64,000 bases of DNA from Candidatus Saccharimonadota bacterium (GTDB lineage Bacteria; Patescibacteriota; Saccharimonadia; Saccharimonadales; Saccharimonadaceae): the NCBI GenBank assembly GCA_017524405.1, contig JAFWSJ010000014.1, positions 1-64,000 of the forward strand. The letters run 5' to 3'. Made by a program: the position numbers and the translations under genes. The notes beneath the pieces are model-generated. The model searched no databases and had not been told where the DNA came from. It saw nothing but the letters and a program-made list of their open reading frames with translations. Position 1 is the first letter of the stretch; the number at the start of each line of letters is the position of its first letter. Below are positions 36,675 to 43,055 of this stretch, piece by piece.

Positions 36675-36760
36675 TGGTGCTGGGAGTAGGAGTCGAACCT
36701 ACGAAGGCCGAAGCCGGCAGATTTACAGTCTGATGCGTTTGACCACTTCGCTATCCCAGC
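36675..36760 (-). tRNA. tRNA-Tyr(GTA)
   Basis: A class II tRNA with a long variable arm (CCGGCTTCGGCC). Acceptor GCTGGGA/TCCCAGC, anticodon loop CTGTAAA giving GTA, encoded CCA. Confidence 0.96.
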
Positions 36761-36815
36761 AAAGTACTAAACTATTTTAGCACAAGCTGGGGTTGTTATC
36801 AAGGAATTATAGGCC

Positions 36816-39800
36816 TTAATTCTCGAGCATCGCTGCGCGGAAATCTGCAACTAATTGTTGATCATATTCGAGATTGTCGCCGGAGCCATAGTAGAACCAC
36901 TGCTCTACCTCTTCGTTTGTTTTTATAAACGAAATCATATGAAGATACTTCGTTGTAGGATCCATCTCTCCGCCATTAGGCGTTGGGTTCGTGCCTTTGT
37001 GATGATAGAAGCGCGTACGGTCAGGTCGTCCGCTAAGCGACGTGAGCTCATAGTCTCTTGCGCGCGTTTCATAGTCTACTCCAAGAAGAGCTTCTGCGAG
37101 ATATGCTAGAGTACCAGTTCGGTCTGCGCCATGAGAGCAATGGAAATAGATACTTTTTCCGTCTCTTACGTCCTCCATCAGCTGCTTGAGGACGCTTCTA
37201 GTATATCCGTAATACGTCGTTTTGTCCGTATTAATATTGTAGTGTATCATCCCCAAATCTTGTCGGTAGCCATCAAAGTGCGAACCTTTCTGATCGTTCA
37301 CCCCCCTTCTTAGGTCGTACTCGTAATTGATACCGAAGTCTTGTTGTAGAGTTGCTACGTCCGCATCGTCAAGCTGTTCGCCGCGCAGGAGAACCCCATA
37401 TTTTAGCTTTTGCCCATTCAGGCCAACCATGCCGCCAAGGTCGCGTACATTGCGCGCGGTCGTTAGGGATATCATTCTTCGCGTGCCGATGGCTTTTACG
37501 TAACCATATACGTTTGAGTCGGCCTCGGATACCCACTTGTATGTTTCGCCCGGTATTAGGTTTATAAGCCGGCCGTCGTTTCCCCCCGCGTATGCTACTT
37601 GCTCGCCTTCGTTTCTTTGTATTTCGTCGGATAGATAGACTTTCACTGGTCCGGACACGCCAGTATTATATGAGTTTGAGCGATCGCAATATACCGTTCC
37701 GTCTTCTCGGTATTTATAGGTGCTCGAGAAATCAGTCGAAGTGTCTGCTCCGGTATTCGTGACCGTTTTGCATTTATTGCCATCGAAGTTGTTCTTAAGC
37801 TTTTCGTAGAGGTAGTCTCTATCGTCAGGATAACGTTCTTGCCCCTTCCACTCGTCGATATTGGCCAGGTAGTTTCTGACAGCTTCGCTTTCCACGTAAT
37901 GCTCTGCAACGATTTCTGGGTCTGTAGCTGGCTCTTCGGCTTCAAGCTTTATGTACATATTACTCAGTTTCCCGGTTAGGAAGCGGTTTTTCTTAGGAGT
38001 ATATGCGCCTTCTGCCGGAGTCGATGTTGTGCCGTCTGGGTATGCGCCAAACCATGCCGAGAGGCTGAAGTGATACGTTGGATCGGTCGGCGAAGGGGAT
38101 TTGCTCTTTGTTGAGGTGGTCCAGGTGTCAGTCGCCTCGTTATAGGTCTGCATCGTAATTATAGCCTTGCCATTTGCCGGGTTATATTCTCGCTTGACTC
38201 GGATTTTCTTTACGTCACTAGCCGCTTGCGTAATTTTTTCGTTATTACTCGTGCTGCCGCCAGCGTTCGTATTGATTTCGATTTTATCGTCGCTTCTTCG
38301 TATGATTAGGCCTGCGGCAAAATCTGTGCTGCTATTAATTTTGGAGCTGTCTTTGGCGTTAAAGAATGTCTGCTGTTTATTGTCGTTTGTCGTAGTTGCT
38401 ATTTGTTTTGTATAGTCGTATTCGTCAATTTCGAAATAGACTTCATATGCTTTTCCGATGTTTTCGTCGCTATATAGTGAAACTCCAGTATCTATGTATT
38501 GGTCTCCGGCATAATCGCAGTTTTCGCCCTTGACGAGCCCGCTATTGCCATTATTTTGTGCCTCAAATTCGCATTGGCCTTGGTGCTGCCAGACGATTGG
38601 CATAGTATCAAATGTCCAGTGAGCATAGAATACAGCTTCTCCAGTTACTGTATATGGCGTTTCTAGTTTTACCCCCTCGCTTGCTTCGGTGAACCATCCG
38701 TCGAAGATATAGCCGGAACGAGTTATTCCTGGAAGATCCGATTCCTGGAGTGCTTCGCCTACTCTTTCTGTGTAGGCAATAGTCGCGTTCCCGTTTTGTG
38801 GGACGAATGTCAATTGTGTATTTGTGTATACTGTGACGCTAATCTGAACAACCTCGCCAGACATGACGCCCCTAATTCCGATTGTCGTTGTGCCGTTGGC
38901 TACTGCTGTCACGGTTCCGTCATCGTCGATTGTAGCTATACTGTTGTCGCCTGAGGCAAATTCGAATTGTTCAATGTCGCTTGCGTTATCGATGGCTATA
39001 TTGCCCGTGGTACCGATTTCGAGCTCCATGCTATTTGTGTTAATGGCGGCTTGTGTCACGTCTTTAATCCAATGCGCATGATATGTGGTTTCGCCCATGA
39101 TTGGCGTTGACGTGGTTAGCTTTTCTCCGCCATTTTCTGTCGTATACCAACCGTCCAGGATATAGTGTTCGAGTGACGACGTTGGGAGCGTCGAAATGCT
39201 GTCGCCTTCGGCGATGCCGGTGATGTCCGCGACGTCACTACCGCCATGAGCATTGAAGTGGACGACATACTTCGGAAGGTCTACCGTAACATCAATCTGC
39301 TGTTCGAGCATAGAATATGAGCCGACTAGTGCGATTCTTGTGGTGCCGGCGCTAACCGCCGTGACGTTCCCTAGGTCGTCTACTGTCGCGATGCTAGTAT
39401 CGCCATTGCGGTATCCGTATGGCTCGAGTTCGTCCGCGTTCGTTACCGTGATTTGGGCTGATTCGCCGCGCGTAAGATTAATATTGGAGACGATAGCATT
39501 TGTTATGTCTTTGAGCCAGTGAGCCTCGACGGTGATATTGCCCATCACTGGCGTGTCGGCTGCAAATGCCGTCGTACTGTTTTTTAGGAACCAGCCATTA
39601 AAGACGTAGCCCGTGCGAGTCGGGTCGGCAGGAAGCGTTCCAATTGAGCTTCCTTCTTCGACATCGGTAATGTCGGCGATTTCGTTTCCGCCCTTCGTAT
39701 CGAAGTGAACGGTGTATCTTGGGAGAGTTACTGTGACTGGGATTTCGAAGGTTTCGCCAGAGCGGCTGCCGGTGAGTACGATGTTCGCTTGGCCATTAGA

Positions 39801-42800
39801 TACGGCGGTAACCTTGCCGTCTTGGTCTATCGTGGCGATTTGGTCGTTGCTAGACGACATAGTGAATGGCTCGATATTGTTCTTGTTGGTTATAGTTAGA
39901 TATGCTTCGTCTCCGCGAGTAAGTTCGAAGGAGCTTGGCGATGCAATAGCCTGCTGAACGTTACGTGCCCATTTTGCGATGATCTTAACATCTTCGGTAG
40001 GCGTGTAGCCGTCTGAGATTTGCGTATTTCCAATGAACCAACCATCGAAAATATACTTTTTGCGCGTAGTGACTGGGAGCGTCTCGATTGAGGTGCCCTT
40101 TTCGATTTGCATTTTCTTATAGGAGTTGTCTAGGGTGCCCGATTTTGCGTCAAACTCGACTTGGTAGTAATTCCAATCCATCTCGCCAAGGCGAATCGAT
40201 AGATTGCTCAGTGTACCGACTAGAACATTCTTTGGTTCTGGGTCTTCGGTGCCATCATTTGGATAAGCGCCAAACCATGTGGTCTGGTTGAAGTATTGAT
40301 TGAAGCCGCTGACATCCTGGAGCTCGAATAGGTTGCCGCCGTTCATCGAGATATAGACGACTCTATTGTGGCGAACAAGTTTAATAGTTTGGAACTCGGT
40401 GTATGGCTTAATGTAGTTTGCCTCAAGGTAGCCAGAGCCCGTTTCGTTTAGGAGCGCTGAGCGAATGTCGATATTGTTTCCGCTCTTGCGAACAACGACG
40501 CCTGGCGATTTTGCTTGAGGAAGTGGGCTAGGTGGGTTTGGGAGTTGTGATGTAGGATGCGTCGTGCTGATTTTGTTGCTAACAAAAGCTGCTTGCGCCT
40601 CAACTTGATTTGGTGAGTAGCTGTCGATATTGAAGGAGATTTCATAATCTTTATCGAAGTTTTCTGAAGTGTTGAGGGAGATTCCGGTGTCTACGAATGT
40701 CTGGCCCACAAAGTTAGTATCGCCAAATTGGCAGGTGCTGCTCGTTGTAATTGTGCCGTCTTTGCCATTGAATATGCAGTCGCCCTCGACGCTGAATACG
40801 ACTGGGAATTTGTCCTCCCATACAGCATATAGGGTTACGGCGCCGCTGGTTGCGAGGTTGCTTACTTCTTCGCCGTCGCCATATTCTATTGCCGTCGCAT
40901 TCGGGTCTGTTGACCAGCCTTTGAAGTTGAAGTTGCTGCGCTGGAATTGATTAGTGCTTAGGTTGGCGGCTTGATCGTAGGTCATGCCTTGCGGGTTCAT
41001 TGATCCGGTCGCATCGTCGGCGTTTTTATCGAATGCGATAGTGTATTTTTTTGCGGTCCACTGCGCGTAAAGATGATATTCGCCACCGTCTTCCGCCGTG
41101 AGGTTCTGGACCGGCTCCTTGTCGCTATACCCCTGGCCAGCGTCACTAGCATTTTCATTCCAGTGGTCGAATTGATAACCTGCACGGCTGAAGCTATTTT
41201 CTTCGAGCGCCGTTTCGGCTTGGTCGTAAGTAAAGCTTTGGGTTGCAGTCGCGGTGCTGCCTGGGTAGTTGGCGTGGAAGACGACCGTGTAATTATTTGC
41301 GCGGTAATTTGCGCCAATGATTGCGTCTTCTGCTCCCACCGTGAAACTACGCGAAGCATCGGTCACGTTGTCTGACCAACCAGTGAACGTATAGCCATTT
41401 TTGGTGCCGGCCGTAAGGGTGCCGGTTTGCTCATAATAATACTTCTGGCCGCTCGTGAAGGTGTCGCTCGAGATTTGCGCAGAATTGTCGCCAAAAGTGA
41501 TCGTATACTGGTTGCGGGTATAGTAGTAGTCGATGACCATGTGGCCGTCACCGGTAATTTTCTTGGACTGAGCGGCTGGCGCGGTGAATCCGGTGTAGGA
41601 TTCGCGGTTCGGAGTGGCCATCGTGTCTGTTGTGCCGGTTTTGTCCTCGGTTCTCGCGAGCGCGTAATTATCTCCACCACCGATATTCTGCTTGTAATGG
41701 TTTACGGTGTAGGCGGTATTCGTGTTCGCGGTCCAGAAGGCGTAGAGTGTAATTTCTCCTTCAGCGAGAAGATTCTGCACGGACTCTTCGTTGGCATAGC
41801 GATTGCCGGTATCGTTACTTTCGGTATTCCAGTGATCAAAGGTGTAGCCTTCGAGTATGAAGCTATTTTTGCTTAGCTTTTCTGCCTGGTCGTAGGTTAA
41901 GGTTTGGGTGCTCATGCTTCCCGTTGCGGCGCTGTTATTCTTATTGAAGCCAACGAGATAAGTGTTTGGAGTATAGATTGGCTTGATCGAGGTAGCTTCG
42001 GTCAGTTCGATCGAGATATTCTTCGTAGTTTCGCCGTTGCTCCAGTTAGCAAAAACGTAGCCAGTGCGATCTTTAGCGGTTAGTGTTACTTGTGTGCCGT
42101 ATTTATAGTTGCCCGCTGGCAGTGATGATGTCGTGTCGTCGGTGTCCTCGAGCACTAGAGCGATGAGCTCGCGATTATAGTCATAGACGATTTCGGTGCT
42201 GCCGTCTTTGGCGATAGTTGCGGTTTTTGCGGCAGGCGCAATAAAGCCGGCATAAGTCTTGGTGTCCGGCGTTGCGGTTTTCCCGGCTACCCCAGTCTTC
42301 GATTCGGATTCGACCACAGTATAGTCGTCATTCTCGAGGTTTTGCTGGCGATGAATGACGGTGTATTTTGCCGATACCTCTGGCTCTTCTGGTGCATCTG
42401 GCGCATCTGGTTCATCTGGGGCGCTTGGCGTCTCTGGCTCGTCTGGAGTAGATGGTGTTTGGTTGTCGGAAGGTTTCGTATTCGGCGTATTGTTGGATGG
42501 CGTAACTGGTGAAATTGGCTCCGGTTCTGGCTCTGGGGTCGGTTCTGGTTCTGGGTCTACTTGTGGAATTGGATCAACTGGTTGCGGTTCTGGCGTGCCT
42601 GGTTCGATTTTGACCTGGACCGGCGCAAGAATCAGCATCGGAACGAGGATGAGTGCGGAAATAAAAGTCGTGATAAACGATAGAGACTTTTTCGTCTTGA
42701 TTTGACGGACGAGGAAAAAGACGGCTAGGGCAACCAATGCAATCGCTGCTACCCAGCGTAGTATACCAAGCGCAGTAGAAACGCTGACAAAGGTATAATA

Positions 42801-42812
42801 CTCTCTTGTCAC
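36816..42812 (-). CDS. giant surface protein with C-terminal tyrosine phosphatase domain
   Basis: 1998 aa. Two membrane helices (about 14-35 and 45-65) with a basic loop between them put the rest outside the cell. Next come a Pro/Glu stalk (70-145), MucBP-like units (147-213, 366-433), InlB B-type repeats ending LYAFW/YAQWT/YAVWE (about 285-667), two LamG-like domains (668-880, about 1405-1610), and three alternating InlB plus BIG2 units of about 150 residues (885-1400). The last 200 residues are a dual-specificity/LipA-type phosphatase: RNVRDLGGM and HCSHGADRTG with Cys1892 and Arg1898. GTG start after AGGAGG; -10 TATAAT at 42834-42839. It likely binds and signals to a partner cell, an inference. 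Confidence 0.88.
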   Translation of the reverse strand: MTREYYTFVSVSTALGILRWVAAIALVALAVFFLVRQIKTKKSLSFITTFISALILVPMLILAPVQVKIEPGTPEPQPVDPIPQVDPEPEPTPEPEPEPISPVTPSNNTPNTKPSDNQTPSTPDEPETPSAPDEPDAPDAPEEPEVSAKYTVIHRQQNLENDDYTVVESESKTGVAGKTATPDTKTYAGFIAPAAKTATIAKDGSTEIVYDYNRELIALVLEDTDDTTSSLPAGNYKYGTQVTLTAKDRTGYVFANWSNGETTKNISIELTEATSIKPIYTPNTYLVGFNKNNSAATGSMSTQTLTYDQAEKLSKNSFILEGYTFDHWNTESNDTGNRYANEESVQNLLAEGEITLYAFWTANTNTAYTVNHYKQNIGGGDNYALARTEDKTGTTDTMATPNRESYTGFTAPAAQSKKITGDGHMVIDYYYTRNQYTITFGDNSAQISSDTFTSGQKYYYEQTGTLTAGTKNGYTFTGWSDNVTDASRSFTVGAEDAIIGANYRANNYTVVFHANYPGSTATATQSFTYDQAETALEENSFSRAGYQFDHWNENASDAGQGYSDKEPVQNLTAEDGGEYHLYAQWTAKKYTIAFDKNADDATGSMNPQGMTYDQAANLSTNQFQRSNFNFKGWSTDPNATAIEYGDGEEVSNLATSGAVTLYAVWEDKFPVVFSVEGDCIFNGKDGTITTSSTCQFGDTNFVGQTFVDTGISLNTSENFDKDYEISFNIDSYSPNQVEAQAAFVSNKISTTHPTSQLPNPPSPLPQAKSPGVVVRKSGNNIDIRSALLNETGSGYLEANYIKPYTEFQTIKLVRHNRVVYISMNGGNLFELQDVSGFNQYFNQTTWFGAYPNDGTEDPEPKNVLVGTLSNLSIRLGEMDWNYYQVEFDAKSGTLDNSYKKMQIEKGTSIETLPVTTRKKYIFDGWFIGNTQISDGYTPTEDVKIIAKWARNVQQAIASPSSFELTRGDEAYLTITNKNNIEPFTMSSSNDQIATIDQDGKVTAVSNGQANIVLTGSRSGETFEIPVTVTLPRYTVHFDTKGGNEIADITDVEEGSSIGTLPADPTRTGYVFNGWFLKNSTTAFAADTPVMGNITVEAHWLKDITNAIVSNINLTRGESAQITVTNADELEPYGYRNGDTSIATVDDLGNVTAVSAGTTRIALVGSYSMLEQQIDVTVDLPKYVVHFNAHGGSDVADITGIAEGDSISTLPTSSLEHYILDGWYTTENGGEKLTTSTPIMGETTYHAHWIKDVTQAAINTNSMELEIGTTGNIAIDNASDIEQFEFASGDNSIATIDDDGTVTAVANGTTTIGIRGVMSGEVVQISVTVYTNTQLTFVPQNGNATIAYTERVGEALQESDLPGITRSGYIFDGWFTEASEGVKLETPYTVTGEAVFYAHWTFDTMPIVWQHQGQCEFEAQNNGNSGLVKGENCDYAGDQYIDTGVSLYSDENIGKAYEVYFEIDEYDYTKQIATTTNDNKQQTFFNAKDSSKINSSTDFAAGLIIRRSDDKIEINTNAGGSTSNNEKITQAASDVKKIRVKREYNPANGKAIITMQTYNEATDTWTTSTKSKSPSPTDPTYHFSLSAWFGAYPDGTTSTPAEGAYTPKKNRFLTGKLSNMYIKLEAEEPATDPEIVAEHYVESEAVRNYLANIDEWKGQERYPDDRDYLYEKLKNNFDGNKCKTVTNTGADTSTDFSSTYKYREDGTVYCDRSNSYNTGVSGPVKVYLSDEIQRNEGEQVAYAGGNDGRLINLIPGETYKWVSEADSNVYGYVKAIGTRRMISLTTARNVRDLGGMVGLNGQKLKYGVLLRGEQLDDADVATLQQDFGINYEYDLRRGVNDQKGSHFDGYRQDLGMIHYNINTDKTTYYGYTRSVLKQLMEDVRDGKSIYFHCSHGADRTGTLAYLAEALLGVDYETRARDYELTSLSGRPDRTRFYHHKGTNPTPNGGEMDPTTKYLHMISFIKTNEEVEQWFYYGSGDNLEYDQQLVADFRAAMLEN

Positions 42813-42891
42813 TTTACCTCCTAATTTATATTAATTATACATTAGCGAATTGAAGAAGACAATAAATATAAGCGGAATTTTATAGAAAAAT

Positions 42892-42930
42892 TGGAGCCGT
42901 AAATATCTTCGATATTTACTCTCCATCTTC
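42892..42930. repeat. short copy of the tRNA-Thr 3' end with a hairpin
   Basis: TGGAGCCGTAAAT at 42892 nearly repeats the tRNA-Thr end TGGAGCCGCAAAT at 42980. A GTAAATATC-TTC-GATATTTAC hairpin is contained in it. Only 12 of 13 bases agree, so chance or a small scar are both possible. Confidence 0.3.
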
Positions 42931-42942
42931 GGAAAAAGCATC

Positions 42943-42971
42943 AAAAATGCAAGCATTTCTGCTTGCTTTTT
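42943..42971 (-). terminator. terminator of tRNA-Thr
   Basis: GCAAGC-AGAAAT-GCTTGC followed by ATTTTTG on the minus strand. Confidence 0.7.
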
Positions 42972-42979
42972 CTCTCAGA

Positions 42980-43055
42980 TGGAGCCGCAAATCAGACTTG
43001 AACTGATGACCTGCCGCTTACAAGGCGGCTGCTCTACCAACTGAGCTATTGCGGC
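42980..43055 (-). tRNA. tRNA-Thr(TGT)
   Basis: Acceptor GCCGCAA/TTGCGGC, anticodon arm GCCGC-CTTGTAA-GCGGC giving TGT, T-arm with TTCAAGT, encoded CCA. Confidence 0.96.

Follow-up and report, generated by a model that had tools for sequence, protein, structure and literature searches.

The surface protein gene and its modules

The window analysed here, the whole stretch of 64,000 nucleotides, comes from a genome of 0.898 Mb in 18 contigs that is 99% complete. At 36816..42812 it holds a gene for a surface protein composed of a membrane anchor, a repeat stalk and a phosphatase domain; this gene and all features given below lie on the minus strand. The frame starts with GTG, runs through 1998 codons without an internal stop and encodes 1998 aa. 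A ribosome-binding site, AGGAGGT, lies 3 nt 5' of the start (42816..42822), and a promoter-like site, TTGTCT-17-TATAAT (42834..42862), agrees with the consensus at 10 of 12 positions, a consensus match only, in a region where 11 such sites were found against 8.7 expected by chance, which is barely above chance. The uninterrupted frame with its own ribosome-binding site bears out the sequence-only reading, which had taken the locus for a single gene of 1998 residues. A frameshift, or a phosphatase encoded as a separate gene, is ruled out by the single open frame and by the same fusion in 11 genomes, and an assembly chimera by that frame, the recurrence of the fusion in these genomes and the syntenic neighbours. 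A phage or plasmid origin was likewise rejected, as phage and plasmid records yielded only homologues of about 30% identity and viral contigs one weak match. PADLOC returned no match that would make the gene part of a defence system.

Hydropathy places hydrophobic segments at residues 17-35 and 44-62, in agreement with the N-terminal membrane anchoring proposed earlier. The two predicted transmembrane segments (residues 17-62; 42627..42764) are separated by a basic loop, and by the positive-inside rule both of their ends, and hence the long C-terminal part of the protein, would face outwards. The cysteines of the stalk are paired (679/694, 1414/1432 and 1681/1709) and the sole unpaired one is the catalytic Cys1892, a pattern as expected outside the cell that we therefore count in favour of an extracellular location. 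No LPXTG wall anchor was found at the C-terminus.

The anchor is followed by a spacer rich in Pro, Glu and Asp (residues 70-145; 42378..42605) and then by the repeat stalk (37863..42377), in which Pfam identifies nine stretches of Flg_new, the Listeria-Bacteroides repeat (E 3.7e-62, 206.8 bits, above cut-off), three of Flg_new_2, the divergent InlB repeats (E 1e-14), and three of Big_2 (E 7.9e-18, 64.6 bits, above cut-off). The InlB-type and BIG2 repeats named from the sequence were thus recovered, and the tandem Flg_new and Big_2 repeats together with the membrane anchor give the protein the sequence features of the adhesin class. The labels MucBP-like and LamG-like had to be dropped, as neither family gave a Pfam match even at E 5. 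The two modules that had been called LamG-like, module 1 (residues 675-880; 40173..40790) and module 2 (residues 1405-1650; 37863..38600), are each about 200 residues long, have no family assignment, contain one Cys pair each and are related to one another (E 7e-15); module 2 has no sequence match in the PDB. An Fn3-like module, labelled by eye and common to the Bacteroidales homologues in the alignment, immediately precedes the phosphatase (37488..37715). About eight more frames of 450-1070 aa with Flg_new repeats are present on contigs 8, 11, 13 and 17 of the same genome.

The phosphatase domain and its relatives

The C-terminal domain (residues 1782-1998; 36819..37469) is assigned to Y_phosphatase3 by Pfam and by its predicted fold. 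The Pfam match (PF13350) covers residues 1782-1936, with E 6.5e-23 and 82.4 bits against a cut-off of 22.2, well outside what chance would give. AlphaFold2, run on residues 1770-1998 with a shallow alignment of five rows, gave a pLDDT of 67.6 and a pTM of 0.75. The blocks that surround the P-loop lie mostly in the range 66-85, residues 78-97 and 156-189 of the model are of poor quality and the lid region is not modelled. This shorter domain replaced a longer construct that included the Fn3-like part and reached a pLDDT of 52. Foldseek placed a Clostridioides difficile protein tyrosine phosphatase (E 1.7e-8) and Mycobacterium tuberculosis PtpB (E 3e-5) at the top, and a profile search of PDB sequences returned the same two relatives (9.4e-13 and 9.5e-8, respectively). 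With VIA-align the model scored Z 15.4 to PtpB (1ywf, 181 residues) and 14.7 to the C. difficile enzyme, above TpbA, Siw14 and PFA-DSP1 at Z of about 13. Structure prediction, which the sequence-only reading had named as a check, therefore turned out in favour of the phosphatase assignment, and the model, at a pLDDT of only 67.6, points to a PtpB-type fold.

The P-loop, HCSHGADRTG (residues 1891-1900; 37113..37142), was located by alignment and comprises H1891, the nucleophile Cys1892, A1896, Asp1897 as the putative general acid and Arg1898. The CX5R motif reported earlier is intact, with C1892, numbered as before, and R1898, and is present in all 11 homologues. More broadly, H-C-x-x-G-x-D-R-[TA]-G is retained in every one of the 11 Saccharibacteria copies, including the Cys, the P-loop Asp and the Arg, at a domain identity among the copies of only about 50%. 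In the alignment Asp1897 falls on the P-loop Asp of MptpB. This Asp probably acts as the general acid in MptpB and its relatives, in which a P-loop Lys binds the lipid substrate; the atypical lipid phosphatase (ALP) family is defined by HCxxGKDR, with the Lys strictly conserved at P-loop position 5, and its change to Ala, made in two enzymes, cut the activity on PI(3)P to about 10% and strongly lowered that on PI(3,5)P2 (PMC3091653). This Lys is missing from all 11 copies, being Ala1896 in the window protein and A, S, V or T in the homologues. Because the Asp is kept and the Lys is lost, catalysis is likely and specificity for poly-phosphoinositides is not; such lipids are unlikely substrates for want of the Lys, and a phosphoprotein, a phosphoglycan or a mono-phosphorylated lipid is more likely. 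The LipA/MptpB-type label of the sequence-only reading is therefore only half earned: the PtpB-type fold, CX5R and the P-loop Asp speak for it and the absence of the family-defining Lys against it.

Comparison with known enzymes leads to a similar placement. The domain has Y_phosphatase3, the N-x-RD start motif, the PTP fold, CX5R and the P-loop Asp in common with the ALPs, that is, MptpB/PtpB of M. tuberculosis and the LipA-type lmo1800 of Listeria, and is about 30% identical to the Listeria homologues. However, ALPs carry HCxxGKDR and are described as a phosphatase domain only, whereas the window protein has Ala in place of the Lys and about 1780 residues of anchor and repeats before the domain. 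As these two ALP features are absent, we do not file the protein among the ALPs. The C. difficile phosphatase (PDB 8dhi/8dhj), the best match both by PDB sequence and by Foldseek, is a stand-alone enzyme of about 249 aa with GKDR in its P-loop, unlike the window protein. An architectural parallel is found in large, predicted-secreted Bacteroidales proteins of 1368 aa (L004) and about 1377 aa (L005), which have the same Fn3-like and phosphatase pair with HCxxGADRTG in their C-terminal part and a domain 28-35% identical to ours. They differ in their N-terminal part (L004 lacks Flg_new and Big_2), in having residues after the phosphatase and in belonging to another phylum; a common origin of the pair by transfer is plausible.

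Distribution, genomic slot and exchange

Of 45 genomes of the genus, 8 encode the phosphatase domain, in each case at the C-terminal end of a repeat protein of 1749-2181 aa, and the fusion is found in three genomes of a sister genus as well, so the search for it in related genomes proposed earlier was successful. The named loci nearest to the domain belong to uncultured Saccharibacteria (58% and 47% identity). Elsewhere in the phylum Y_phosphatase3 is rare: at E <= 0.001 it was found in 7 of 380 genomes, and the weaker of these matches are short and partial. Presence in only 8 of 45 genomes indicates that the domain is not essential to the lifestyle. On a weakly resolved gene tree of the flanking TPR protein the carriers are patchy, with at least five changes, some absences among which may stem from fragmented genomes. 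The proteins of G011 and G163 start with a signal-peptide-like segment. In two sister-genus copies (G195 and G169) a hydrophobic stretch, weak in G195, follows the phosphatase and would place it near the membrane. The position at the tip of a stalk described in the sequence-only reading would thus hold for the window protein, where the domain is C-terminal, and is not general.

Another Saccharibacteria genus encodes a different carrier, present in 5 of 14 genomes (G160, G173, G154, G096 and G130; L021:6860-7978 and L093-L097). This protein of about 370 aa has a signal-peptide-like start, a T4SS_pilin-like part made up of two segments (PF18895, E 7e-4 and 8e-4, both under the cut-off) and Y_phosphatase3 with HCxxGKDRTG, and is a possible pilin-phosphatase fusion. 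Like the window protein it has a membrane-held phosphatase produced by N-terminal fusion; it differs in that the pilin-like anchor replaces the repeat stalk and the ALP Lys is kept.

The window gene occupies the whole interval between tRNA-Thr (TGT) at its upstream border (42980..43055) and tRNA-Tyr (GTA) at its downstream border (36675..36760). The same two tRNAs flank this interval in almost all genomes of the genus that were read, and in the sister genus the gene adjoins tRNA-Thr (TGT) in two of three genomes. The interval (36675-43055 in the window, and L056-L075) is a variable slot that is empty, holds short genes or holds other large surface proteins. It measures about 0.1 kb in G208 and G159; 5.2 kb in G094, with a VWA/DUF285/Flg_new protein; 6.8 kb in G222, with a Flg_new protein of 19 repeats that lacks the phosphatase; 5.5-6.7 kb in seven carriers of the phosphatase adhesin; and 0.4-3.3 kb in other genomes.

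The surroundings of the slot vary as well. By eye, LytR/CpsA/Psr- and Wzz/BY-kinase-like genes follow it in several genomes (L003:8909-12495, L060:4124-7082 and L071:10220-13734), with a PHP-type phosphatase-like gene in L003; this set resembles capsule operons and is absent there in the window. A second large surface gene, missing in the window, stands right after tRNA-Tyr in G221 (L056:5038-8133), where it encodes Fib_succ_major and Flg_new, and in G216 (L057:8022-11030). Proteins of 1403-1410 aa with no Pfam match lie beside the slot in G152 (L062:5142-9374) and G223 (L073:8039-12250) and share the ending DNF..NNLDE.GY.KI..AL..YLG.

The gene itself appears to be a mosaic. Nucleotide comparison with G221 revealed a tract of 1493 nt (39577..41069) that is 95.6% identical, against 63.4% for the remainder of the gene. 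The pS of the tract core is 0.05-0.09; the flanking proteins are 90-97% identical, with pS 0.65-0.82 (near-saturated) and pN 0.016-0.06, and the C-terminal 500 residues have a pN of 0.31-0.44. So low a pS amid genes near saturation indicates that about 1.5 kb of the stalk moved recently between species. The tips give a tree that differs from that of the flanks. The window, G216 and G221 group together in the flank tree (100/100). They are separate in the tree of the phosphatase, where the flank topology is rejected (AU p 5e-4); there the window pairs with G183 (99/98), a pairing rejected by the flanks (AU p 9e-5), and beyond about residue 1400 the window protein mostly matches G183 best, not G221. 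These discordant trees are most simply read as an exchange of tips between species; very fast divergence alone is not expected to give a pairing at 99/98. The phosphatase fold and the adhesin type are each known; the slot, the tract moved between species and the exchange of tips lift their combination above a routine domain fusion.

A proposed ectophosphatase of contact

We propose that the protein is a cell-attached, contact-dependent ectophosphatase on the adhesin of a Saccharibacteria epibiont, diversified by recombination, a reading for which we infer catalysis, outward topology, host contact and substrate and to which we give about an even chance. The two N-terminal helices would hold the protein in the membrane, and the stalk of Ig-like and InlB-type repeats would extend outwards with the Fn3-like and PtpB-type cysteine phosphatase pair at its far end. 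The enzyme would dephosphorylate a substrate on or near the surface bound by the stalk, most likely that of a bacterial host cell, by attack of Cys1892, with Asp1897 as the acid and Arg1898 holding the phosphate. Surface-protein genes would come and go in the tRNA-bounded slot, and stalk modules and phosphatase tips would be exchanged between species. That the active site is kept while the rest is swapped and reshuffled suggests an enzyme used on whatever the cell touches, and the retained catalytic residues, the fast exchange of tips and the phosphatase-less relative in G222 fit such a contact ectophosphatase. Epibiosis of Saccharibacteria needs multiple adhesins (PMC10633639), and the cultivated members are epibionts of Actinobacteria, according to the same source.

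Alternatively, the enzyme may serve nutrition by releasing phosphate from organic phosphates in the vicinity of the cell, the stalk merely keeping it outside with no role in contact. A secreted, broad phosphatase in a reduced genome (0.9 Mb) fits this account, as does the domain lying near a C-terminal membrane segment and not at the tip in two sister-genus proteins. However, fast divergence and the exchange of tips between species look driven by interaction, unlike housekeeping scavenging, and the gene neighbourhood (tRNAs, the TPR protein and YhhN) contains no phosphate uptake genes; we therefore consider a nutrient phosphatase possible but rather unlikely. It is improbable that the enzyme acts on phosphoinositides or phosphatidylinositol in the membrane of an actinobacterial host, as LipA/MptpB does on animal-cell lipids. 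M. tuberculosis PtpB is its nearest solved fold, inositol lipids are made, among bacteria, mainly by actinobacteria (PMC3091653), which are also the known hosts of cultivated Saccharibacteria (PMC10633639), but the lipid-binding Lys of the P-loop is Ala, position 2 has no Lys either and the host membrane lies beneath peptidoglycan. A dead PTP fold serving as an adhesive tip that binds a phospho-ligand without turnover, to which the fusion to an adhesin and a P-loop without the substrate-binding Lys of characterised relatives would lend themselves, is very improbable, as a pure binder would have no need of the Cys and Asp that are kept, with the Arg, in 11 of 11 homologues despite about 50% domain identity.

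If the protein is a contact ectophosphatase, its tip might diversify as an effector that alters phosphorylated molecules on the surface of the bacterial host and has a share in setting the host range, an extension that we offer tentatively, as a doubtful but possible one. Such effectors would be contact enzymes on exchangeable stalks, with two unrelated carriers within one family, the repeat stalk and the T4SS-pilin-like anchor, each fused to a PtpB-type phosphatase. Our literature search, with thin coverage of subscription journals, found no description of an adhesin-phosphatase fusion, nor, among the papers found, of enzymes carried on adhesins. Adhesins are known to be needed by epibiotic Patescibacteria. 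A surface phosphatase with a kept active site and an exchanged stalk and tip is a concrete candidate for the way in which these bacteria recognise and change their hosts that lends itself to a simple assay, and it would give the PtpB/LipA-type phosphatases, which are known to act as effectors on animal cells, a further possible role among bacteria.
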